Part shown: in pieces, positions 41,218 through 54,398 of the stretch | Numbering within the stretch: the first letter of the stretch is position 1 | How the letters are laid out: each line of letters starts with the position of its first letter | Translations under genes and position numbers: made by a program | Origin: a virus | Strand: one strand, 5' to 3' | IMG/VR virus record: IMGVR_UViG_3300002835_000229 | Location: 1-57,309 of that record | Length of the DNA: 57,309 nucleotides | The notes under the pieces: generated by a model | The model's input: only the letters and a program-made list of their open reading frames with translations | Databases searched by the model: none | What the model was told of the DNA's origin: nothing

Positions 41218-44216
41218 TGGCAATTAATAAATTTACTTGTCCACCACAGGCCTCAGGCCAAGGATCGTTCTCAGACAACTTAGTTGGATTCCAATTAATT
41301 GATGGGGGAGGATTTACGCAAGGAAATTTTGAATTTACTACTGGTATTTCGGAAAAACAAGATAGAAATTTTGAGATAGGTGTCTTTTCTGACCCTATGA
41401 GTTTAACAAGTATGAATATTGAGGATGTTGAACAATCAAAAATGTTAATTGCGAATAATTTCCAAGTTTATCCAAATTATGATTTAACCCAAATAACAAA
41501 TTTTACATTATATGGTTCGTTAGTACTTAGAGTTTCTTCGTCTATTAGAAAGATTATTAATTTTTTTCCTGCTGGGTTAGAAGTTCTAAATTATAGACCT
41601 GATTATACAACTGGATATACTGCAGTTAATATTGTTTATGACAGTGTAGAAAATGAAACTTATTTTGATTTAGATATATCCGCAATAAGAAACCCGTTTG
41701 GTATTGATTATACAACAAATGCGGACAAAAACATTCTTTCATCTGAAATATCAATATCCCAGTTAAGAAATTTAAAACAAAATTTTAACAAATATGGTTT
41801 ATTTGTGAATGGTGGGGTCTATTCAATAAATGAGATAGTTCCCACAACCGAAAACGATCAGTATCTAAGAATTTATGTTATTGGAGAACCATTCCCAAAT
41901 AAATACCAAACTGAAGAAGATATAATAATAAGACCTACCGATTTTTATGTTAATAAAGTATTTAATGAAGATTTAGATGCGGTTGAAAACTTCTTACTTA
42001 ATAGACAGAATTACCCATTATATACCGCATACTTTCAAGTACCGGTTGAAAATGAAGATGGGACATATACGTTTAGTTACCAAACATTAAGATTTCCTAC
42101 CGATGGAAAATGGAATTTGGACCTTAGAACCAAATCTTTTGAGAATTACTTATCGGAATTAAATAAATTTGCAACAAATTTTGATTCATATAAAACAAAT
42201 TTAATCTCTAGATTTTTAACTACCGCATCCCTAAAAGAATTTGACACAACAGATAAAAAACTTGAAAAAGTTTTACAATTATATGGTAGAAGTTTTGACG
42301 AAACTAAAAAATTTATAGACGCTCTTGCAAATATGAATTCAGTTAGGTATAATGTTAAAAATGACATACCATCACAATTACTTAGAAATTTAGCACAAAC
42401 TTTAGGATGGAAAATAAATATGTCCCCTATTAGTGAAACTGAATTATTAGATTCCGTATTTAAGGGGGCTGAAAGTAATTTTAGTGGAGTCCCTATTGGA
42501 CAAACTCCGGAAGAATTAAATTACCAATATTTTAGAAATCTTTTATTAAATTCTGCCTTCTTATTCAAATCAAAAGGAACTAGAAAATCTATTGAAATAC
42601 TAATGAGATTGATAGGAGCTCCGGAATTTTTAGTTGAGTTTAATGAACATATATATGTTGCCGACCAAAGGATTAATATTAATGACTTTGAAACAAAATA
42701 CCTTTCAATATCTGGAGGAACCTACGTTCAACAAATACCGGTATTAGATTACACCGATGTGTATTCTATTATGGGAGTACAATATACTGGAGTTACATTA
42801 TCAAGTATAACTAGGGATGTTAGTGTTACTCTTTCTGATTACCCCATAGACCAATTTGGTTGCCCCAGCATGCCAGTTGAAAGTGACACATATTACTTCC
42901 AAATCGGAGGAGGGTGGTTTGAATCAACACCACAACATAGAATGCCGGAAAAGATAGATTTGACAACAAGTGTGTTTACCGGAACAAATCCTTCATATCA
43001 AACAAAATTATTACCATTTAATTATGGTGAAGAATATCTACAAAGATACAGACAATTCCCCTATATGGATATGGGATTCAGATTGAGAAAAATTGTGGAT
43101 AATAAAAAAAGTTGGACAGACCACGAAAGTATTTTAAGAAAAAGTTCTGATGGTAATTTTAATGCGTATTATCCAGTTTCGGAAGACTGTTTAGTTCTTA
43201 ATGTTAAGAATGTTGATATCATGTTAAATCCAAGTTTAGGGTTGGTCTATGATGTATGGTCTATGTCTAGATTATATAATTACCCAATACCTAATCAAGG
43301 ATTAAATTATGTTGAACCAACATATTGTAACCCAAACCCAAACACACCATACCCTAAAAGGGGTGGTATTGATTGGACTGAAATTATACCTAAACCAAAA
43401 GAAAAAACATTCTTTGAATTTGCCCAAACTTTTTGGCATAATACAATTAATGTTAGAAATAGACAATTCATAACTGACGGTAAAACCGGTGGTTATCCTA
43501 CATTACAATCAATCTATTGGAAATATTTGGAATCAAAACAAACTGTTAACATCCCAAATGATAATTTCACATATCAAACAATGATTGATTATGTGAATGG
43601 TCTTGGAGATTATTGGATTAGATTGGTAGAACAAATGGTTCCAGCAACAACAATATGGAATACCGGAGTTAGATTTGAGAATTCAATTTTCCATAGACAA
43701 AAGTTTGTTTGGAGAAGACAATACGGATGTCAAATTGTTCCAATACCTTGTAAACCTTGTCTTTTAACTTCACAATTATTTGCTTTTGATTGTCCCACCC
43801 AGTTTATTGAATGTGGGTTATATCCTTGGACAAATAATCCAAATATTGTTTCTTTTGGTACTATATTGGCAGAAACTTTAAATAATTATTTATTGGCGAA
43901 TGGTTTAACTTTAAGTGATTGTTTATTAAATACAATTGTTGTTCATTGGTATGTTGATTTAAGATTAAACGGAGTTCCATTAACTATAGACCTATTTACA
44001 ACAACAAGTGGGTATTCTGTAATACCAACAAATTCTGAATGGGTGAGCGGATTAACCCAATCTTTAAATAATTTACAAAATGACGGACTAACTTATTCTA
44101 TTGATGAGGAAAATAATTCCGTAACTGTTTTTAACATAAATTGTACACCACTTAGCCTTGACGATACGTTTGAGATTAATGTTGGTTTGGACTTTAATAT
44201 ACTGTGTAATCAATAA
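41217..44216 (+). CDS. Large tail connector/fibre-base protein (999 aa)
   Basis: The middle (residues ~330-500) is helical and carries NLLLNSAFLFKSKGTRKSIE-type sequence followed by RLIGAPEFLVEFNEHIY. This K-x-KGT-(R/E)-x-(A/S)-I pattern is seen in tail proteins that link baseplate and fibres (gpI-like proteins of many contractile and siphophages). After residue ~860 it has CKPC and a final Cys-bounded domain that resembles the end of the next protein. The ATG overlaps the previous stop and its own stop overlaps the next ATG. It is probably the platform on which the SprB-repeat adhesin is mounted. Confidence 0.72.
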   Translation: MAINKFTCPPQASGQGSFSDNLVGFQLIDGGGFTQGNFEFTTGISEKQDRNFEIGVFSDPMSLTSMNIEDVEQSKMLIANNFQVYPNYDLTQITNFTLYGSLVLRVSSSIRKIINFFPAGLEVLNYRPDYTTGYTAVNIVYDSVENETYFDLDISAIRNPFGIDYTTNADKNILSSEISISQLRNLKQNFNKYGLFVNGGVYSINEIVPTTENDQYLRIYVIGEPFPNKYQTEEDIIIRPTDFYVNKVFNEDLDAVENFLLNRQNYPLYTAYFQVPVENEDGTYTFSYQTLRFPTDGKWNLDLRTKSFENYLSELNKFATNFDSYKTNLISRFLTTASLKEFDTTDKKLEKVLQLYGRSFDETKKFIDALANMNSVRYNVKNDIPSQLLRNLAQTLGWKINMSPISETELLDSVFKGAESNFSGVPIGQTPEELNYQYFRNLLLNSAFLFKSKGTRKSIEILMRLIGAPEFLVEFNEHIYVADQRININDFETKYLSISGGTYVQQIPVLDYTDVYSIMGVQYTGVTLSSITRDVSVTLSDYPIDQFGCPSMPVESDTYYFQIGGGWFESTPQHRMPEKIDLTTSVFTGTNPSYQTKLLPFNYGEEYLQRYRQFPYMDMGFRLRKIVDNKKSWTDHESILRKSSDGNFNAYYPVSEDCLVLNVKNVDIMLNPSLGLVYDVWSMSRLYNYPIPNQGLNYVEPTYCNPNPNTPYPKRGGIDWTEIIPKPKEKTFFEFAQTFWHNTINVRNRQFITDGKTGGYPTLQSIYWKYLESKQTVNIPNDNFTYQTMIDYVNGLGDYWIRLVEQMVPATTIWNTGVRFENSIFHRQKFVWRRQYGCQIVPIPCKPCLLTSQLFAFDCPTQFIECGLYPWTNNPNIVSFGTILAETLNNYLLANGLTLSDCLLNTIVVHWYVDLRLNGVPLTIDLFTTTSGYSVIPTNSEWVSGLTQSLNNLQNDGLTYSIDEENNSVTVFNINCTPLSLDDTFEINVGLDFNILCNQ

Positions 44217-46525
44217 TGAGTTATATTAATTTTATATCGTTTACTGTTACTGGAGATTGTGGTAATCTGAGTGTTGGTGAAATGTCTTTCACTATAACCG
44301 GAGACTCACCTACTTGGATTGTAACCGAAGGACCACCATATACTGGTTTATTACCTTTGTCTGGTTTAACACCTGGAGATGAAACCTATTATGTTGGTGG
44401 ATTAAGTGCCGGAACATACTCAGTTATCGTACAAGACACCGCACCAACCGGCCCAACACCACCATTTAGTGTAACAACAACATTTAATATTTCTTCAGGT
44501 ACTACCGTTTATTTGGATGCGGAAGGAACTACTTGTGGTTTAAATAATGGTTCATTAACTGGTTATACCGGAAATTTTTATGGTAATTCATCATTTTATT
44601 TATATACACTTTTAGGTGATTATGTAACAAGCGCTCAAACACCTTATAATATTGGATATGTTATTTTTCCTAATTTATCTGCCGACACTTATTATGTTAT
44701 TGGTGATGATGGTGGTGGTTGTACTGGGAGAAGTGAATCGGTAATAATTAATGTAAGTAGTTCTTTTGATTATGGTTATTATGCCGTGGACGATGCGAGT
44801 TGTATAAACAACCAAGGTAGTGGTAAAATATACTTAACAGGACTTACAACACCAACAAGTGCCTACACAATTAATTGGATATCAAATGTTAATGGTCAAA
44901 CAGGAACAACCGTAACCGGATTAACACAAGGGTTATATACGGTCGAAGTTACCGACACAATCGGATGTATAGTTCAAAAAAACATTCAAATAGTTAATGT
45001 ACCTAAAATAGGTATAGGAGCAACATATATTACATCACCAGGATGTTTCCAAAATAACGGAGAAGTAACGGTTGTTGTTACTGGAGGAACCGCACCATTC
45101 TACTACTACGCCTCAAATGGGGATGACTTTATTGGTTTTGGTACATCACATACATTTACAGGATTAACCAATGGGATATTAACAATAACGGTAACTGACG
45201 CTGGTCTATGTAATGACACAATACAAGTTAATCTTGTTACACCAAATTCTTTTGGTGTTGTAAATGTCGTTACAACAAATTCAAATTGTAATTCAAATAA
45301 CGGATCGATATATATAACAATTAATAATGGAGTTGGGACTGGTAACTACAATTATACTATTTCTGGGTCTAACGGAACAAATCAAGTAAATGTTGCCGGA
45401 GGACTATCACAAACATTTCAAGTAGGTACTGGGGACTATGTGATTTTAATTGATAATGGGGCGGATTGCCAATATACTGGAACAACAAGTGTTTATAATG
45501 TTGATAAATACACAATAACGGGTTTAACTCTTAATACGTCTTGTGGTTTAAATAATGGAACCATAAAAACATCGGTATCAACGGGGGCAGTTTATCCTTT
45601 GTCATATCAGTTAGTGGGTCCAATAGGTAATTCAATAACCACAACACAATTAAATGGTAATTTTAGTGGATTACAAGCGGGTACTTATAATTTAACTGTT
45701 ACAGACGCAACTGGATGTCAACAAACAATACCAATATACATTGCACCATCAAGCCCTATGTATTTTGATTTTATGACCTTTAATCCGGTGTTTGGTAACG
45801 ATGGTCAAATAAATGTTTTAATAACAAGTGGTACACCACCATTCTCATATACTTGGACTGGTAATGTGGGGGTACAAACAGGGATTGTAATTACAGGATT
45901 AACATCGGGAGTGTATAGTTTAACAATAGTTGATGATAATGGTTGTTCATTTACAAGAATTGTGAAATTAAAAGGTACTGAACTTTTTGGAACATACTCA
46001 GTGTTCAATATATGTGAACAAAATTTTGAAGATTCTAACATTGTAGGTAAAAGAGGTATTTTACAAATGTTTAATGAAGGGTTTTACGATTTAACTTCCG
46101 GAGATACAAATTGTATTGTTAATTCTGCGGAATTTAACTTACAAGTTATTGTTGGTGGTGATGAATTAATTGAAACAATATATTATTCTACAGGACTTGA
46201 TGATTACCCAAGTGAAGTTGTGTGGGCTGATTCATTAATAGAAATGTTACAAACATTTGTTGGTATTGGAGATGTAACAATAGATTATGTTAACAACAAA
46301 ATAACAATAACTAATGATTGTGAAGAGATTATTAAAAATTGTAGAACAAAAACTTACAATTTATTAAATGATACTAAAATAACGGTTAATTTAATTATCA
46401 ATTACGATATATCTTGCGTGGCGTGTGAACCAACACCAACTCCGGACATTCCAATTAATGCAATTATTACTAATAATAATGAATATATGGAAACTGGTGA
46501 TGATGAATATTTACAATATAATTAA
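44216..46525 (+). CDS. SprB-repeat tail adhesin (769 aa)
   Basis: Residues ~98-586 are about seven tandem Ig-like units of ~70 residues, each starting near C-x-x-NNGS and ending in GLxxGxYxxTVTDxxGC. This is the SprB repeat (PF13573 type), known from the Flavobacterium gliding adhesin SprB and other Bacteroidota surface proteins. Good units are INNQGSGKIYLTGLTTPTSA and the one containing TGGTAPFYYY and GLTNGILTITVTDAG. The C-terminal ~150 residues (after FGTYSVFNICEQNFED) are a different Cys-containing domain shared with the previous gene's end, followed by a PTPTPD tail. It is likely a fibre that contacts the host surface. Confidence 0.83.
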   Translation: MSYINFISFTVTGDCGNLSVGEMSFTITGDSPTWIVTEGPPYTGLLPLSGLTPGDETYYVGGLSAGTYSVIVQDTAPTGPTPPFSVTTTFNISSGTTVYLDAEGTTCGLNNGSLTGYTGNFYGNSSFYLYTLLGDYVTSAQTPYNIGYVIFPNLSADTYYVIGDDGGGCTGRSESVIINVSSSFDYGYYAVDDASCINNQGSGKIYLTGLTTPTSAYTINWISNVNGQTGTTVTGLTQGLYTVEVTDTIGCIVQKNIQIVNVPKIGIGATYITSPGCFQNNGEVTVVVTGGTAPFYYYASNGDDFIGFGTSHTFTGLTNGILTITVTDAGLCNDTIQVNLVTPNSFGVVNVVTTNSNCNSNNGSIYITINNGVGTGNYNYTISGSNGTNQVNVAGGLSQTFQVGTGDYVILIDNGADCQYTGTTSVYNVDKYTITGLTLNTSCGLNNGTIKTSVSTGAVYPLSYQLVGPIGNSITTTQLNGNFSGLQAGTYNLTVTDATGCQQTIPIYIAPSSPMYFDFMTFNPVFGNDGQINVLITSGTPPFSYTWTGNVGVQTGIVITGLTSGVYSLTIVDDNGCSFTRIVKLKGTELFGTYSVFNICEQNFEDSNIVGKRGILQMFNEGFYDLTSGDTNCIVNSAEFNLQVIVGGDELIETIYYSTGLDDYPSEVVWADSLIEMLQTFVGIGDVTIDYVNNKITITNDCEEIIKNCRTKTYNLLNDTKITVNLIINYDISCVACEPTPTPDIPINAIITNNNEYMETGDDEYLQYN
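44507..45973 (+). repeat. Tandem SprB-type repeat array (about seven units)
   Basis: Protein-level repeats of roughly 70 codons, strongly diverged at DNA level. Unit ends near residues 180, 260, 340, 428, 508 and 586 are marked by the (V/I)TDxxGC or equivalent motif. Confidence 0.75.
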
Positions 46526-46527
46526 AT

Positions 46528-46743
46528 ATGCAACAACTAACTTTAAATAGTATCATAGGGTTAGTACCCCCATTTAGTGGATACGCTTGTGACGTTTACG
46601 GGAACCAATGTGAATATATTGGAACAATAACCTCAACACCAGTAACTATAACATTACCCCCACCTTTTGACATGGCCCCAACAATAGGGTTTAAATTAAT
46701 TGATTCTACTGGGTGTGAAAAATTTGAAATCTTAGATTGTTAG
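46528..46743 (+). CDS. Small fibre-cassette protein A (71 aa)
   Basis: Starts two bases after the adhesin stop. It is beta-rich, with four conserved features: a GLVPPF turn, YACD..G..CEYIG, a TLPPPF strand, and a C-terminal FKLIDSTGCEKFEILDC. The 73-residue gene at 54400 (-) has the same pattern (PFDVYVCD, C-Y-x-x-TI, LRVIDNNECQINEIL) and is clearly a paralog. Both stand directly upstream of a modular fibre cassette. The function is unknown; a fibre cap, chaperone or attachment module would fit. Confidence 0.7.
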   Translation: MQQLTLNSIIGLVPPFSGYACDVYGNQCEYIGTITSTPVTITLPPPFDMAPTIGFKLIDSTGCEKFEILDC

Positions 46744-46745
46744 TG

Positions 46746-46764
46746 GTGTAATTAATAGTTACAC
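46746..46764 (+). other. Short inverted repeat after the 71-aa gene
   Basis: GTGTAA and TTACAC are separated by seven bases. There is no following T-run, so it is not a convincing terminator. Confidence 0.25.
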
Positions 46765-46816
46765 AACATACATTAACTTAAAAAGTATTCCAGTTAATCC
46801 GGAAATAAATTCACTT

Positions 46817-46823
46817 TATTTAT
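46817..46823 (+). promoter_or_regulatory. TATTTAT element upstream of glycosyltransferase gene
   Basis: TATTTAT ends 20 bases before the ATG at 46844, within the 100-base gap. Confidence 0.38.
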
Positions 46824-46843
46824 TTTAACAATATATTTTAAAT

Positions 46844-47824
46844 ATGAAAGATATTGTATTTGTAACTGCACAACCTGACGTTCCATATTTTCATTGGCAG
46901 GTTAAATTATATGTTCATAATTTTATTGAGAAGGGAATTGACCCTAAAAAAATTCACGTAATTTTTGCTATGGTTCACGGATCAAAAGAACTAACAGAAG
47001 GAGCAAAAAAATTAATGGACTATGGTATTAATGTTCATTTTTTTGATGATAATAGAAGTAAAAATTTATATATACCTAGCATAAAACCTTATTTGATATT
47101 TAAGTGGTTAGAAAAAAATCCTGAATTAGGTAAATGTTTCTTTTTACACGATGCCGATATAATCTTTAATAAATTACCAAACTTTGATAGTTTATTAAGT
47201 GATGATATTAATTATTTATCAGACACAATAAGTTATATTGGATATGATTACATTATGGATTGTGGTAATAGATATGAAAAACAACATCCTTCATCTGAAA
47301 AAGGACAATTAATAAGTGAAATGGCAAACATAATTGGGATTGATGTTAACACAATAAAAGAAAATCAAGAAAATTCTGGGGGAGGACAATACCTTATAAA
47401 AAACACCGATTATAAACTGTGGGAAAAAATATACATTGATTCAACACCATTATATAATCAAATGTTAAGTTACCAAAAAAGATTCCCAATTAATCCAGGA
47501 CAAATACAGTTTTGGACTGCTGAAATGTGGTCCGTTTTATGGAATTTATGGTTACATAATCATAAAACAAAAATAACAAAAGAATTGGATTTTTCCTGGG
47601 CGACGGATAATGTTAATAGGTATAATTCTATGCCAATACTACATATGGCCGGAGTAACAGATGACCTAAAAGGAACTAAATTTTATAAAGGAGAATACAT
47701 TAATGTCGACCCAATAGAAAAATTAAGAGAAGATGAGAATTACTTTAATTATGTTGATAAAAATAGCTCAACAATAAAATATATTGAAGTAATGAAATCT
47801 TTTATTCAAAAAACTAAAATCTGA
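46844..47824 (+). CDS. Glycosyltransferase-like protein (GT-A, DxD)
   Basis: The 326-residue protein starts with a Rossmann-like strand (KDIVFVTAQPDVPYFHWQV), similar to the beginning of peptidyl-serine galactosyltransferases and hydroxyproline arabinosyltransferases. The metal-binding DxD is HDADIIF (D103, D105), preceded by IKPYLIFKWLEKNPE. It has no signal peptide or transmembrane segment, so it is a cytoplasmic enzyme. It sits inside the fibre block between genes rich in Thr/Pro linkers. I infer that it adds sugars to fibre proteins (perhaps to those linkers) or to another phage or host target; donor and acceptor are unknown. Confidence 0.75.
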   Translation: MKDIVFVTAQPDVPYFHWQVKLYVHNFIEKGIDPKKIHVIFAMVHGSKELTEGAKKLMDYGINVHFFDDNRSKNLYIPSIKPYLIFKWLEKNPELGKCFFLHDADIIFNKLPNFDSLLSDDINYLSDTISYIGYDYIMDCGNRYEKQHPSSEKGQLISEMANIIGIDVNTIKENQENSGGGQYLIKNTDYKLWEKIYIDSTPLYNQMLSYQKRFPINPGQIQFWTAEMWSVLWNLWLHNHKTKITKELDFSWATDNVNRYNSMPILHMAGVTDDLKGTKFYKGEYINVDPIEKLREDENYFNYVDKNSSTIKYIEVMKSFIQKTKI

Positions 47825-47825
47825 T

Positions 47826-47832
47826 TATTTAT
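47826..47832 (+). promoter_or_regulatory. TATTTAT element upstream of the 592-aa fibre gene
   Basis: TATTTAT ends 5 bases before the ATG at 47838, in a gap of only 13 bases. Confidence 0.4.
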
Positions 47833-47837
47833 AATAA

Positions 47838-49616
47838 ATGGAAACTTGTTTTAAATTGCTTTCTTGTGATGGGTCTTATAATCCATTTAACTCTAATAAT
47901 CCTAATTTATCTGGGTATGTTGATACATTTATTACCATTGATTTATTAGGTCCTTTAACAGGAACCCCAGAAACCCAATTTTTAGTTAAAAATTTAGGTG
48001 AAATTGATTGTGTTACAGGACAAACTTTTAATATTATTAGTAGTGCCGAAACTTGTGATTGTCAGTGTTATATTTTTAAAACGCCCGAAGAACCAATATT
48101 AACCACATATGTTGATTGTGACTATAATTTGTTAGAGGTTTATTTACCTACAGGAAAAACAACAAACTTATGTAGTGTCATTAAACCAATTTTTGATATT
48201 GGAGATCCTTTACCAATAAAGTTAGGGGGAATATGTGTTAGTGGGGATTGTCCAAATTACGACATGCCTGTTACTATTGAACCCAGAAATGAATGTGACG
48301 TACTTACAATATTTCCTATGGGTGTTGATTGTATTATCCAAAATCCAACTAACGATAGAACATTTGACGGAGCGGCAGCATTATCAATTACCGGAGGAAC
48401 ACCACCTTATACGGTAATTTGGGATAGTGGAGGTATTGCACCAACAATATATAATTTAAATGCTGGTTCATACGGAGCAACCGTAACCGATTTTTATGGT
48501 GATTTTATTATTAACACAATTTGTGTTTTAACTGCCGAAACAACAACAACCACAACAAGTACAACAATAAAACCACCTATCGAATATAGTGATTTATGTG
48601 GAATTGCAACAATTAGAAGCAAAATAATCGGAGTACCCATTGACTATGTACAAATACAATTAGAACCTAATGGGGCAATTAACGGTAAAGAAAGTTGGAT
48701 ATCCCCAGACACCCAATATTTATTATCTTGGATTACCGGAGCAACAAACCAATGGGTTTTAACTGGATATCCATCACCATACATTAATATCGTAAACGCA
48801 AATCCGGCAACACCACCATTAACTGGATGGCAAGTATTAGGAGGAATAGAAGTTTATAATTTTACACTTATTAGTGGAGACTGTACAAGTGATAGTTTGG
48901 TAGGATTTAACTTAACCAAAAATGACCCTATTTGTGGTAATAGTGGAAGCATCCTTATCCAGGCTTATGGTGGAACTGGAATTTATGAATATTCAATTGA
49001 TAATGGGATTAATTATACCTCAAACCCTATGTTCCAGAATTTAGGTTCAGGATCATATGTTGTTTACGTGAAAGATTCTAATGGAGTTACATTTCTTCAA
49101 AATGTGTCATTAATACAACAACCAACAACAATTTATACAGTTGAATTAAACGTAAATACGGCAACAAATACATTTAGTATTAATTGTCCTTTATTATTAC
49201 CAGGAGACACATTAACGTTTAATTTAAATAATAATAGTAATTTACAATATTACCCTAACACTCTTTCACCAGTACCTTTATATAATAATGTTGTTACTAT
49301 AAATGGTTTTGGGCCAATGACTTTAGTAACAACAAACAATTCACAAAATGTTTTAAGTTTACCTTGTTCTATAACACCAATAACTCAATTACAACAAGTA
49401 AAAGCATATAGTAATCAAATAACATTAAGTTATGGTCAAACAATTACAGGTTCTTTTACCAATAGTTTAGTAAACTACTCACCTTTTGGTTATTGTGTGT
49501 TAGCACAAAAAAATTATCAATTATTTATGACAAATGCAAAAATTAATAATTGTAAGTGTTGTAGTGTTATTATAAAAAACCCACCGTTATCTACCCCTAT
49601 AATCGTAAAAAATTAA
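47838..49616 (+). CDS. Modular fibre protein with SprB-like units and Thr linker (592 aa)
   Basis: Layout: a Cys-rich N-terminal part (1-155), a SprB-like unit (~162-232, SITGGTPPYTVIWDSGG), a Thr-rich linker (~234-246), a module starting INGKESW with a later NQWVLTG (~252-355), a second SprB-like unit (~365-430, IYEYSIDNGINYTSNPMF), and a C-terminal beta domain with CKCC near the end. The NGK...W module is shared with the inverted fibre gene at 53025. It has neither enzyme motif nor membrane segment. It is probably a distal fibre or adhesin that recognises the host. Confidence 0.75.
   Translation: METCFKLLSCDGSYNPFNSNNPNLSGYVDTFITIDLLGPLTGTPETQFLVKNLGEIDCVTGQTFNIISSAETCDCQCYIFKTPEEPILTTYVDCDYNLLEVYLPTGKTTNLCSVIKPIFDIGDPLPIKLGGICVSGDCPNYDMPVTIEPRNECDVLTIFPMGVDCIIQNPTNDRTFDGAAALSITGGTPPYTVIWDSGGIAPTIYNLNAGSYGATVTDFYGDFIINTICVLTAETTTTTTSTTIKPPIEYSDLCGIATIRSKIIGVPIDYVQIQLEPNGAINGKESWISPDTQYLLSWITGATNQWVLTGYPSPYINIVNANPATPPLTGWQVLGGIEVYNFTLISGDCTSDSLVGFNLTKNDPICGNSGSILIQAYGGTGIYEYSIDNGINYTSNPMFQNLGSGSYVVYVKDSNGVTFLQNVSLIQQPTTIYTVELNVNTATNTFSINCPLLLPGDTLTFNLNNNSNLQYYPNTLSPVPLYNNVVTINGFGPMTLVTTNNSQNVLSLPCSITPITQLQQVKAYSNQITLSYGQTITGSFTNSLVNYSPFGYCVLAQKNYQLFMTNAKINNCKCCSVIIKNPPLSTPIIVKN
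48537..48570 (+). repeat. ACA-rich triplet tract (Thr linker)
   Basis: ACA/ACC codons encode TTTTTTSTTI between the first SprB-like unit and the NGK module. Confidence 0.7.
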
Positions 49617-49639: not shown

Positions 49640-52315
49640 ATGGCATATATAATAAAAAATACATCAGGATTAGTTAACACAAGAGTTACCGACGTTGGTA
49701 GACAGAAAATGTCCCAGGGTAACTTTAATATTTCTTATTTTCAAGTGGGGGATAGTGAGATATCATACGATAAACTACCAGCAACTTATAATCAGGCAAA
49801 TAGTTTTATTTTAGAACCTGGGTTTAATAGTCAAAATACTAGCGGAGCTCCCCAATCAAACAAACAATATGTTAAATACCCATATTATGCCGATTCAAAC
49901 CAAAGAAATACATATGGAATACCCTTTATGGACTCAACAATTGATCCGGTATTTAATCGAGCTCCTTTAAGAGGATTTTTTGGGGGAATAACAACCGCAA
50001 CAACAATAAATTGGGAAGTTTTAGTTGGGGATAATTATGTCCTTAGTTCTAATTATATGGTGGATATGTCAATGCTTAATGGGTCAAATCAAATTGAGTT
50101 AATATATTCTGGTTGTAATAGAACAAGTGAGACAACTCCACAAATTGGGGATATTATCACAATTTATTATGATGGGAATGCATTATTAAATTGTGAGTGT
50201 ATAAACTTACCAACACCAACCCCAACACCTTCAGTAAGTGTGTCCCCAACGGTAACTATGACCCCAACACCAACACCTTCACCAACAGATATTTGTGCGT
50301 CATCAACACCAACACCAACACCAACAAGAACTCCTTGTTTAACCCCAACACCAAGTCCTGAGTGTCCATTACCACCACCACCGGAGTGTTTTATGGGAAT
50401 GAATAGTTGTTATACTATTTTAACATATAGAATTATTGATGTTTGCGGTGATTTAATAACTTTAGATAGACCAACACCAGATTATACAAACTTACTTGTT
50501 ATGTGTTATTCAAGAGTATTAATATACCCTCAAAATATGACACAAATATATGATAGTATAACACCAGGACCACATTGGAGTGAACAAGTTATAAATTTTG
50601 AATCTATATGTGATACTGACCAGTTTGATGTTAAAGTTTGGAATATGAATATTCCTTGGACAGAAAATCCGGCAGGTTTAATCCCATCATTATTTGAGGA
50701 CTACACTAAATTTGGTTCTATTAATTATATAGGATCAAAAGAATATTTTGGATATAACTCAAGTTCTGGTCAAACAGATACTGATTATGTTTATTATTAT
50801 AATTCATTTGACGAAATTGTTCAGGTTAAACCGGAAGAACAAAAGGCAATTGCGATTATACATTATACTAATCAAACAATAGATTTTTTCTATGGTGAGA
50901 AATTTGCGTTAGAACCATATGATGTGACAAACCCAGAAGACACAACAGGTCAAGCAAGAAACTTTAAATTACATATTCCTTGGTTAATGTGGCATAAAAA
51001 TCCTGAATGTTGTTTTGGACAAACATTTTGGGTAGATCCTCCAGGGTTTGAAGACAAAGAATTATTTACGGTTCATTACCTCAAATCAACTAAGAATGAA
51101 GATATGAACCAACCTGGTATGAGATATTACCATTTATGGGACACAAACCCTAATTCAGATGGAATCCCAAGTAGAATAGGTAAAGTTTTCCCTGACAGTA
51201 AGTTGGTTATTATTGATGATGAAGAAATAATTGCCGCAATGTCTTATAAATCAAATAGAAACTGGACGTTACCGGCACCTCAAGTATCATTAATAACACC
51301 AAATACTTGTGATACCACAACATCGGCAACTGGAATCCTAACAGGAAATTCAGAGACAATGTTTATAACATATAGATTAACTAATGACAATGAATTTACA
51401 AATTCATTGCATTGTAATTACTATTCAAAAGTTATTGGTAATAATAATGATTGTAATCCGGATACTTCTAAAAATATTGCAATTAGATTTGGTCCTGAGT
51501 TTGGATGTTTAGTCCAACCAGTTCATAATCATATAACAACTACAACCACAACAATACCAGTTTGTCAAAGATATGAAATCATTAATAATGGTGATAAAGG
51601 TGTGATCGTAACGTTTACGCCTTGTTGTGATGAAACAAAAACATCACCACTATCATTACCCGGATCGACAGGAACACAACTTTGCTCAAGCACCGATATT
51701 GACCCAATTTCATCCGCGGTGACAATAACCAATTTAGGTGATTGTCCTTCGTGTATTACAACTACAACAACAACATTTTGTCCTACATGTGAGGTACCTT
51801 TAGGTTTTTATGGTAATAGATTTGAAATATTAGCACAAAAAGTTGTAACAGGAACTAGACCAGATTCCACAAAATGGAAAGTCATTGATTTTACTCCACT
51901 TATTAGCGGAACCTCAATTAATGGATACTTAACTCAAAATGGTATTACTGGTAGTACTTTTATAATATCAAATGAGAATTATAATGTCGCACCTTACTAT
52001 AATTTAAATACATTCATCCCATTAACACCTAACGGTAATGTTGGAGCAAAATTAAACTTTGGTGATGAATATTATTTTTATGGAGCTTTTGAAACAGATA
52101 TACAGGCAACAATATATGAAATGAAATATAAAATTAATTTAAGTTCTAGTGAATTCCAGGTATCAACAAACCCATCTTGGACTCAAGGGACTACATCATA
52201 TGTTACTGAAATTGCGTTATTGGATGAAAATAAAGATATATTAGTTATGTCAAAACTACAATCACCAACAATAAGACAAGGTACCCAACAATACGTGATT
52301 AAAATAGATTTATAA
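49640..52315 (+). CDS. Tail fibre-type protein with Pro/Thr linkers (891 aa)
   Basis: The first 40 residues (TRVTDVGRQKMSQGNF, then YFQVGDSEI) resemble the start of tail-collar fibre proteins (LTxxGxxKxxxG...hxVGD), a domain that attaches a fibre to the baseplate. Residues ~190-240 are a TPTP linker. The middle (~260-630) is a large domain of unknown family with conserved-looking HYTNQTIDFFYGEKF. Two Thr runs (~632, ~705) flank a Cys-bounded module (CQRYEIINNGDKG ... CSSTD), which is repeated at the end of the - strand fibre gene. The C-terminal ~170 residues are a beta domain. It is likely the fibre shaft with exchangeable modules. Confidence 0.75.
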   Translation: MAYIIKNTSGLVNTRVTDVGRQKMSQGNFNISYFQVGDSEISYDKLPATYNQANSFILEPGFNSQNTSGAPQSNKQYVKYPYYADSNQRNTYGIPFMDSTIDPVFNRAPLRGFFGGITTATTINWEVLVGDNYVLSSNYMVDMSMLNGSNQIELIYSGCNRTSETTPQIGDIITIYYDGNALLNCECINLPTPTPTPSVSVSPTVTMTPTPTPSPTDICASSTPTPTPTRTPCLTPTPSPECPLPPPPECFMGMNSCYTILTYRIIDVCGDLITLDRPTPDYTNLLVMCYSRVLIYPQNMTQIYDSITPGPHWSEQVINFESICDTDQFDVKVWNMNIPWTENPAGLIPSLFEDYTKFGSINYIGSKEYFGYNSSSGQTDTDYVYYYNSFDEIVQVKPEEQKAIAIIHYTNQTIDFFYGEKFALEPYDVTNPEDTTGQARNFKLHIPWLMWHKNPECCFGQTFWVDPPGFEDKELFTVHYLKSTKNEDMNQPGMRYYHLWDTNPNSDGIPSRIGKVFPDSKLVIIDDEEIIAAMSYKSNRNWTLPAPQVSLITPNTCDTTTSATGILTGNSETMFITYRLTNDNEFTNSLHCNYYSKVIGNNNDCNPDTSKNIAIRFGPEFGCLVQPVHNHITTTTTTIPVCQRYEIINNGDKGVIVTFTPCCDETKTSPLSLPGSTGTQLCSSTDIDPISSAVTITNLGDCPSCITTTTTTFCPTCEVPLGFYGNRFEILAQKVVTGTRPDSTKWKVIDFTPLISGTSINGYLTQNGITGSTFIISNENYNVAPYYNLNTFIPLTPNGNVGAKLNFGDEYYFYGAFETDIQATIYEMKYKINLSSSEFQVSTNPSWTQGTTSYVTEIALLDENKDILVMSKLQSPTIRQGTQQYVIKIDL
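50209..50360 (+). repeat. CCAACA repeat coding TPTP linker
   Basis: Imperfect CCAACA/CCAACC hexamers encode TPTPTP tracts broken by SVSVSPTVTM, DICASS and RTPCL. The same linker type is on the - strand at 53911-54069. Confidence 0.8.
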
Positions 52316-52994: not shown

Positions 52995-53026
52995 AAATAC
53001 CATCTTTTTAGGTGGTATTTTTTTTT
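52995..53026 (+). terminator. Bidirectional intrinsic terminator between convergent genes
   Basis: A 10-bp stem (AAATACCATC 52995-53004, GGTGGTATTT 53011-53020, one T-G pair) has a T-run on the + strand (to 53026) and A-rich sequence on the other side, so it can serve the RuvC-like gene and the opposing fibre gene. Confidence 0.85.
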
Positions 53027-54398
53027 AACCACAAATATTACCTGTTGGTGTGATTTGTAATGAAGGGTTGTACCCAATAGGGATCGTTGACGAACATATT
53101 ATTAAACTTTGGTATGATTGTATCATACCGTCAATTGGTGGTTTATCCCCACAAATTGTATATTGGTATTCCTGTGATGTAGCAGCTTGATTCACCAAAA
53201 GATATTCCGTTATAATACAAGGAGATATGGTTGTTGTTGTTGTGGTTGTTGGTGTTGGAGACGGGCAAGGAACACTTAGTAATGTTGTGTTAAAATTTAA
53301 GTCAAAACAATCTACGGATGGATTGGTATTTAAAACAATAACCCACTCTAATGTGGTACCTATTGGAAGTACGCTGTCTATTTCTAAATAAGCCCCTAAG
53401 ATATTTGTTGTAGTTTCAGTTGCATTCCATCGACCATTGATATTATCCCAATAAATGTTATAAATGTACTGCGGTGAAATAGGGAATGGAAAACTCCATG
53501 TGTATGATAATTTTCCATTTATAAATGTGCCAGGATTAACATTTACAGTTCCACATTCAGAATTCATAATTAAACATTCTAAAATTGGATCGGGAGTTGG
53601 AGTAATACAATCTAAACAAGCTCCTTGATTAAACGGACCAATTAATCCTACAATTTGTATGTTGTCAATACCACTTATATTGTCGACTAAACCCTCAAAT
53701 GTTGCACAAATACCAATACCGTTAATGTATGTACTATACACGTATCCTTCACTAATTGTATTTCCTGATGAATCAAGTAAAATTTGTGTGGTGTAATATT
53801 CTAAACCAGTAAAACAATCAACAAACTTTTTAGTGTTACCACACCTCATATATTCGTCAAAAATATTAAAATTAACTATTCCATTAATATCACAAGGTCT
53901 TGTAACTTCAGGTGAAGGAGTTGGTGTTGGGGTATTTGTTGGAGTAGGAGTTGGGGTGTACCCAGTTATCATAACATCAATAAGAAATCCACCACAAGGA
54001 TTTGATGTGGTTGGTGTTGGTGTTGGCGTTGGGGTTGGAGTATTTGTTGGTGTTGGTGTTGGAGTTTGGGAAACTAAACAATTAAAAATTGCGTTAAAAT
54101 CAAAAGAATCACATGCCGATGTTGTTGTTGTGGTTGTTGTCGGACATAACCCACTAAAAAAAAACCCTGAATCTAAGTCAGGAAAAGTGGAACCAACACC
54201 AGATGGACCAAATTGGTCACAAGTACCCCCCAAACTTAAAGATAAACACCAAGAATCTTCAGTTAATGAATAATATATAAAATATCCATTAGTTAAACCT
54301 GTAAAATAATTATATCCATTATATGTAAGAGATAAATTATATTCACCATCATAAGATTGACTCGTATTAAAAATACAATAGTTTTCGTCAGTGGCCAT
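53025..54398 (-). CDS. Inverted modular fibre protein with TPTP/Thr linkers (457 aa)
   Basis: One of only two genes on the - strand. Layout: an N-terminal module (~18-85, YNGYNYF ... IYYSLTEDSWCLS), a Thr run (~87-93), two TPTP linkers (~112-130, 148-163), a Cys-bounded domain (~169-264), an NGK...W module (~293-365, YNIYWDNINGRW), a second Thr run (~382-390), and a final Cys-bounded module (CIITEYLLVNQ ... CSSTIP). The NGK module matches the gene at 47838 and the last module matches the one in the 49640 gene. It is therefore a mosaic of the + strand fibre region. It may be a fibre or a decoration protein. Confidence 0.78.
   Translation of the reverse strand: MATDENYCIFNTSQSYDGEYNLSLTYNGYNYFTGLTNGYFIYYSLTEDSWCLSLSLGGTCDQFGPSGVGSTFPDLDSGFFFSGLCPTTTTTTTSACDSFDFNAIFNCLVSQTPTPTPTNTPTPTPTPTPTTSNPCGGFLIDVMITGYTPTPTPTNTPTPTPSPEVTRPCDINGIVNFNIFDEYMRCGNTKKFVDCFTGLEYYTTQILLDSSGNTISEGYVYSTYINGIGICATFEGLVDNISGIDNIQIVGLIGPFNQGACLDCITPTPDPILECLIMNSECGTVNVNPGTFINGKLSYTWSFPFPISPQYIYNIYWDNINGRWNATETTTNILGAYLEIDSVLPIGTTLEWVIVLNTNPSVDCFDLNFNTTLLSVPCPSPTPTTTTTTTISPCIITEYLLVNQAATSQEYQYTICGDKPPIDGMIQSYQSLIICSSTIPIGYNPSLQITPTGNICG
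53911..54069 (-). repeat. TPTP-coding hexamer repeats on the - strand
   Basis: Two CCAACA-type tracts (53911-53961 and 54007-54069 on the + strand as GGTGTT/GGAGTT) encode TPTP linkers around CGGFLIDVMITGY. They also create a long spurious Val/Gly reading frame on the + strand. Confidence 0.8.

Follow-up and report, generated by a model that had tools for sequence, protein, structure and literature searches.

A phage glycosyltransferase family predicted to O-glycosylate poly-threonine tags on virion proteins

The best explanation of the gene at 46844–47824 (+ strand) is that it encodes a glycosyltransferase (GT) that O-glycosylates poly-threonine (poly-Thr) tags on the phage's own virion proteins, a reading to which a probability of roughly 0.8 is given. 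The GT would be a soluble, metal-dependent GT-A enzyme, probably made late in infection together with the virion proteins, and would transfer a sugar from a host nucleotide-sugar to the threonines of exposed poly-Thr tracts of about 5–10 Thr, often after Pro. Its substrates in the window (the whole analysed stretch of 57,309 nucleotides, IMG/VR record IMGVR_UViG_3300002835_000229) would be the tail sheath, a 457-aa protein and two fibre proteins encoded downstream; members of its family in Gram-positive phages would act on poly-Thr tails at the C-termini of the major capsid protein and the major tail protein. Poly-Thr would be a portable glycosylation tag, with the GT gene usually placed beside the tagged gene. 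We infer that catalysis takes place on Thr and that a sugar comes to occupy the tracts, the benefit possibly being shielding, protease resistance of the linkers or altered binding.

Gene content of the window

The window is a 57-kb piece of a myovirus, as indicated by the tail tube and baseplate proteins encoded on it together with tail sheath, replication and fibre genes. Directly upstream of the GT gene, a 769-aa structural protein (44216–46525, +), recognised by SprB repeats and a virion structural PHROG, has a short PTPTP only and lacks Thr tracts of at least six residues. After a gap of 13 nt, the GT gene is followed by the gene of a 592-aa fibre/structural protein with an SprB repeat (47838–49616, +), a proposed substrate that contains the tract TTTTTTSTT (48540–48566, +). 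Next comes an 891-aa structural protein (49640–52315, +) with four TPTP blocks, a TPTP-type linker region (50210–50359, +) of the kind that does not track with the GT, and two T6 tracts (51536–51553 and 51758–51775, both +); it is proposed as a substrate through its poly-Thr only. Possible further substrates are a 457-aa Thr-rich protein with two T7 tracts and TPTP blocks (53025–54398, −) and the tail sheath (39–2960, +; phrog_23, E 2e-46), which has the tracts TTTTT, TTTTTTT and TTTTTT in its variable part (residues 152–182; 492–584, +). The original prediction had placed the GT between fibre genes with Thr and TPTP linkers and had ascribed the same linkers to the sheath. This description fits the proteins encoded downstream but not the upstream gene, and it fits the sheath with regard to poly-Thr, which makes up most of the linkers there.

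The poly-Thr tracts of the window are encoded by ACA mixed with ACC, ACT or ACG codons. Codon slippage as the origin of such tracts was discarded, since a single repeated codon was found in none of the 128 poly-Thr tracts of genes beside GTs elsewhere. A promoter scan of the window gave chance level only, and tRNA and Rfam searches of it returned no match.

The intergenic slot that separates the GT gene from the SprB gene (46526–46843) belongs to a region that is variable among relatives: in the space from the SprB fibre gene to the fibre gene that follows, they carry a GT and/or adhesin-like genes with GGGYxNTSSG repeats (L286, L295, L300, L308, L312 and L314). The genes found in this slot before a GT were considered as second GTs, but visual inspection identifies them as YadA-head-like adhesins built of GGGYxNTSSG repeats. 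SprB repeats, which are known from gliding adhesins of Bacteroidota, are present in both the 44216–46525 and the 47838–49616 fibre proteins and hint at a Bacteroidota host.

Family, fold and conserved residues of the glycosyltransferase

The 326-aa GT is a member of phrog_4417 (E 1.8e-70, residues 6–319 against positions 3–290 of the 293-position profile), which PHROGs annotates as "prophage pi2 protein 34" with function unknown. There are 256 close relatives among viral contigs and more than 500 by distant-relative alignment. Relatives in isolate records number 74, mostly from Enterococcus, Lactobacillus, Staphylococcus and Lactococcus phages, together with one Chryseobacterium phage, and 38 loci were found in bacterial genomes. 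Pfam and NCBIfam gave no match to the window GT at permissive thresholds, a PDB sequence search gave no GT family, and a search with nine phrog_4417 members, extended to E 10, yielded no GT family. A match to AAR2 (E 0.001) was set aside as chance, because it spans 48 residues of the C-terminal tail and conflicts with the fold. The resemblance to peptidyl-Ser/Hyp glycosyltransferases that had been suggested (GT95/GT96) found no Pfam or NCBIfam GT match at all, in libraries that may not include such models.

The AlphaFold2 model, built from a 75-member alignment, has a mean pLDDT of 95.2 and a pTM of 0.93, and Foldseek followed by VIA-align identifies it as a GT-A fold, with 758 of 1,000 re-aligned chains at Z of at least 8. 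The best structural match is glycogenin (Z 15.8 over 228 residues, 3.5 Å), and further matches are UGGT (Z 14.4), Skp1 galactosyltransferase (14.2) and LgtC (14.1), with identities of 8–12% in the alignments with GT8-type enzymes. On the evidence of the model, the predicted product of 46844–47824 is a glycosyltransferase in fold, closest to glycogenin/GT8-type enzymes. Among the catalytic-type residues, D103, D105, H267, G270, F280 and K282 do not vary among the 75 phrog_4417 members of the alignment; the DxD motif lies at residues 103–105, within HDAD at 102–105, and the spacing of the invariant H267, G270 and K282 is unlike the C-terminal HxxGxxKPW-type motif of GT8. The GT8 sequence profile (Pfam PF01501) does not recognise the protein, which is therefore described as GT8-like in fold and not as a GT8 member. 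With the confident GT-A model, the DxD motif and no transmembrane-like segment (best 19-residue hydropathy 0.55), the prediction of a soluble DxD glycosyltransferase holds at the level of the fold.

The acceptor does not follow from the shared fold. A match restricted to enzymes acting on nucleotides or lipids had been named as evidence against protein glycosylation. The matches are not restricted in this way: the best ones include the protein modifiers glycogenin, UGGT and Skp1 galactosyltransferase; LgtC, also among them, acts on lipooligosaccharide. The best-known phage GTs act on DNA, and one such gene per genome would be compatible with a DNA-modifying glucosyltransferase comparable to T4 alpha/beta-GT. 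However, the T4 enzymes have the GT-B fold, whereas the model has a GT-A fold with GT8-like matches, and the GT genes, which co-vary with protein tags, are surrounded by genes for virion proteins instead of genes for DNA metabolism. This possibility is extremely improbable.

Poly-Thr and TPTP linkers in the clade of the window

Loci of the window's clade were found with the 999-aa upstream protein as a marker, and 14 of them are without the GT (GT−); where the slot is visible in these, either adhesin-like genes fill it or the genes stand in a rearranged order. Poly-Thr is present in the two downstream fibre proteins at 35 of 38 loci with the GT (GT+) versus one of the 14 GT− loci. Three GT+ loci are without tracts in the two downstream genes, one of them in a 223-kb contig that has T6 tracts elsewhere, and a short tract is seen at the GT− locus L312. 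Across whole contigs, 21 strict T6 tracts were counted in three GT+ contigs that total 551 kb, versus none in three GT− contigs that total 355 kb and whose whole records yielded no phrog_4417 GT; the GT− contigs are incomplete, so that those phages may have a GT elsewhere. The sheath tracts obey the same rule wherever both states were seen. The independent tree contrasts in this clade amount to two or three pairs, not significant alone, and this part therefore rests on its consistency with the Gram-positive result described below.

The TPTP linkers behave differently from poly-Thr. They are abundant in the same fibre proteins and could themselves be thought of as the substrate, perhaps as hydroxyproline/Ser glycosylation sites, yet TPTP blocks occur at 13 of 14 GT− loci versus 32 of 38 GT+ loci (p 0.66), and TPTP density is alike in GT+ and GT− contigs. 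TPTP linkers were rejected as a substrate on account of this equal frequency, and we regard such a role as very unlikely. The partner of the GT is probably poly-Thr and not TPTP, as judged from the distribution of the two motifs in relatives, and the co-occurrence of GT and Thr linkers that had been anticipated among related genomes applies to poly-Thr and not to TPTP.

Position of the tract beside the glycosyltransferase gene

In close relatives, the GT gene lies directly before the 592-aa fibre gene, while in distant relatives, poly-Thr is nearly always found in the gene immediately before the GT. At this −1 position, poly-Thr occurs at 28 of 31 Gram-positive loci versus 41 of 484 at all other positions, and at 21 of 23 distant Bacteroidota/jumbo loci versus 13 of 194 at other positions. 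The tagged genes come from at least 10 PHROG families of head and tail proteins, many of them unrelated; the tagged protein of Gram-positive phages is the major tail or the major capsid protein, and its tract forms the very C-terminus. All six isolates inspected have a tract (phage 1706, phiFL1A, VPE25, PMBT8, Semele and MA9V-3); in phage 1706, the capsid and tail proteins share the C-terminal end TTTTTTTTT(T)HHD. Two loci, L085 and L276, have the GT and no tract nearby.

A natural experiment in Gram-positive phages

Homologues of one Gram-positive major tail protein were collected by their core only, with the tail left out, and 73 of them have visible flanks. A C-terminal poly-Thr tail together with a GT gene 0–14 nt downstream is present in 17, neither is present in 56, and no member is mixed. 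The second tail-protein family comprises three members with both, seven with neither and none mixed, which brings the pooled count (n = 83) to 20 with tail and GT, 63 with neither and no discordant case; two members of this second family with about 88% core identity are distinguished by precisely the tail plus the GT. Fisher values ignore relatedness, and the tree counts are thus the safer statement: the tree of the 73 tail proteins has nine state changes, at least six of which fall on branches with good support, and tail and GT agree in all six independent pairs (p 0.031). The capsid protein encoded 2.6 kb upstream also ends in poly-Thr in 16 of the 17 GT+ phages, as against none of 51 GT− phages, the sole GT+ capsid without a tail having a truncated reading frame. 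GT and tag co-vary tightly across unrelated virion proteins.

The genes between the capsid tag and the GT are mostly untagged, and a protein of about 105 aa encoded between the capsid and tail genes carries a tag in roughly half of the GT+ phages. One GT− phage (L500), which the tree places among GT+ phages, bears a C-terminal T10 tail on its ~105-aa protein and none on its capsid or tail protein. The capsid family of L209 offered no contrast for a similar comparison, as every homologue found was GT+. The capsid and tail proteins of GT− Gram-positive siphophages (L487–L566) often share a short C-terminal motif (for example GGVEG in both; ALPGA; PEGA/PAGA). Matching capsid and tail C-termini seem to be a general theme, and the shared end motifs in GT− phages are possibly frameshift or decoration sites.

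The adjacency of the tail-protein tag and the GT in Gram-positive phages, 0–14 nt apart, would also be expected if both formed one mobile cassette and co-occurred by physical linkage, with no enzyme–substrate relation. We consider this quite unlikely: the capsid tag co-varies with the GT across 2.6 kb of mostly untagged genes, the tracts of the window's clade are found in several genes, among them that of the sheath some 45 kb from the GT, the tagged proteins belong to many unrelated families, and the codons within the tracts are mixed. The capsid tag and the scattered tags of jumbo phages make linkage in a mobile cassette insufficient on its own.

Alternatively, the GT could modify a host surface polymer (LPS or a wall glycan) and so exclude competing phages, with the poly-Thr tracts being mere flexible linkers; LgtC is among the structural matches, and GT8 enzymes in the tail-fibre regions of pelagimyophages have been interpreted in this way (PMC7029224). 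This interpretation is unlikely, since it leaves unexplained why poly-Thr ends of tail and capsid proteins are gained and lost with the GT, and since one GT family occurs in phages of Gram-positive and Bacteroidota hosts, whose envelopes differ. The GT gene also sits inside a structural gene block, and its product has no membrane segment. Glycosylation of the phage's own fibres and sheath, as originally proposed, draws support from the co-variation of GT and Thr tracts in near and very distant phages and probably extends to poly-Thr alone, TPTP being equally common without the GT.

Poly-Thr in an unselected scan

Viral contigs were also scanned for seven consecutive ACN triplets, which gave 80 loci. 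The phrog_4417 GT is held by nine of the 39 records coding for poly-Thr versus none of the 41 with the motif outside the Thr frame. It is absent from the other 30 of the 39 poly-Thr records, and poly-Thr can therefore occur without this GT or with another enzyme; these cases may reflect fragmentary records, other enzymes or other uses of poly-Thr. The poly-Thr gene of L426 (IMGVR_UViG_3300008120_000440) lies near genes for a Skp1-type GlcNAc-transferase (PF11397), a 2OG-Fe(II) oxygenase and a radical SAM/SPASM protein; this may be another phage system, unrelated to the first, for the modification of a Thr-rich protein. The 77-kb contig L372 encodes two C-terminal poly-Thr proteins near a phage capsid gene and has no phrog_4417 GT in its record; its poly-Thr tails may be served by another enzyme.

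Implications

The co-occurrence of GT and poly-Thr over several bacterial phyla suggests, at the level of gene content, that many phages sugar-coat their own particles by means of a portable threonine tag. It is fairly likely that phages of Bacillota and Bacteroidota have a common form of virion glycosylation, in which a poly-Thr tag that can be attached to nearly every exposed protein of the virion (capsid, tail tube, sheath or fibres) is read by phrog_4417, independently of the mycobacteriophage systems. The pairing of a GT with a recognisable tag would allow virion glycosylation to be predicted from the sequences of hundreds of phages and prophages, among them cultured Enterococcus, Staphylococcus, Lactococcus and Lactobacillus phages in which the idea is testable. 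It bears on the resistance of virions to proteases or antibodies and on binding, and a single cytoplasmic bacterial-cell enzyme with simple poly-Thr as its substrate could help to make O-glycoproteins in Escherichia coli.

Comparison with known systems

To our knowledge, phage virion glycosylation has been demonstrated only in actinobacterial phages. In the mycobacteriophages Che8, Corndog and Myrna, phage GTs glycosylate the C-termini of capsid and tail tube proteins and shield them from antibodies (Freeman et al., 2023, as cited in PMC12619734 and PMC12363180). The original prediction knew of no described case in T4-like phages, which holds in the narrow sense, but according to the citing text of PMC12619734, mycobacteriophages encode the O-glycosylation of their capsid and tail tube proteins at the C-termini. 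Literature searches for poly-Thr with phage, or for Thr-rich virion proteins with a GT, returned nothing relevant, most subscription papers being outside the search.

Moraphages, aquatic jumbo phages of Bacteroidota, have four core putative GTs, for which virion glycosylation is named as one possible role (PMC12619734). They are likewise large aquatic myophages, but the available portion of that source gives no poly-Thr link or specific virion substrates. With the GT8-type enzymes (glycogenin, LgtC), the window GT has in common the fold, the DxD motif and perhaps, at a different spacing, an H..G..K constellation near the C-terminus; it differs from them in having no Pfam/NCBIfam GT match and only 8–12% identity.

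The mycobacteriophage system resembles the present one in that the GT is phage-encoded in both. However, Che8 gp108–110 do not match the phrog_4417 profile and give chance-level blastp hits only, so that the window GT is unrelated to them. The capsid and tail proteins of Che8 end in FNKTGS and YSDGS, with no poly-Thr, whereas the GT+ Gram-positive phages have C-terminal poly-Thr as candidate acceptors, and the GT genes of Che8 are far from its virion genes, whereas the phrog_4417 GT lies beside a tagged gene. Virion glycosylation by phage GTs is already known; what is new here is the poly-Thr partner and a proposed function for phrog_4417.
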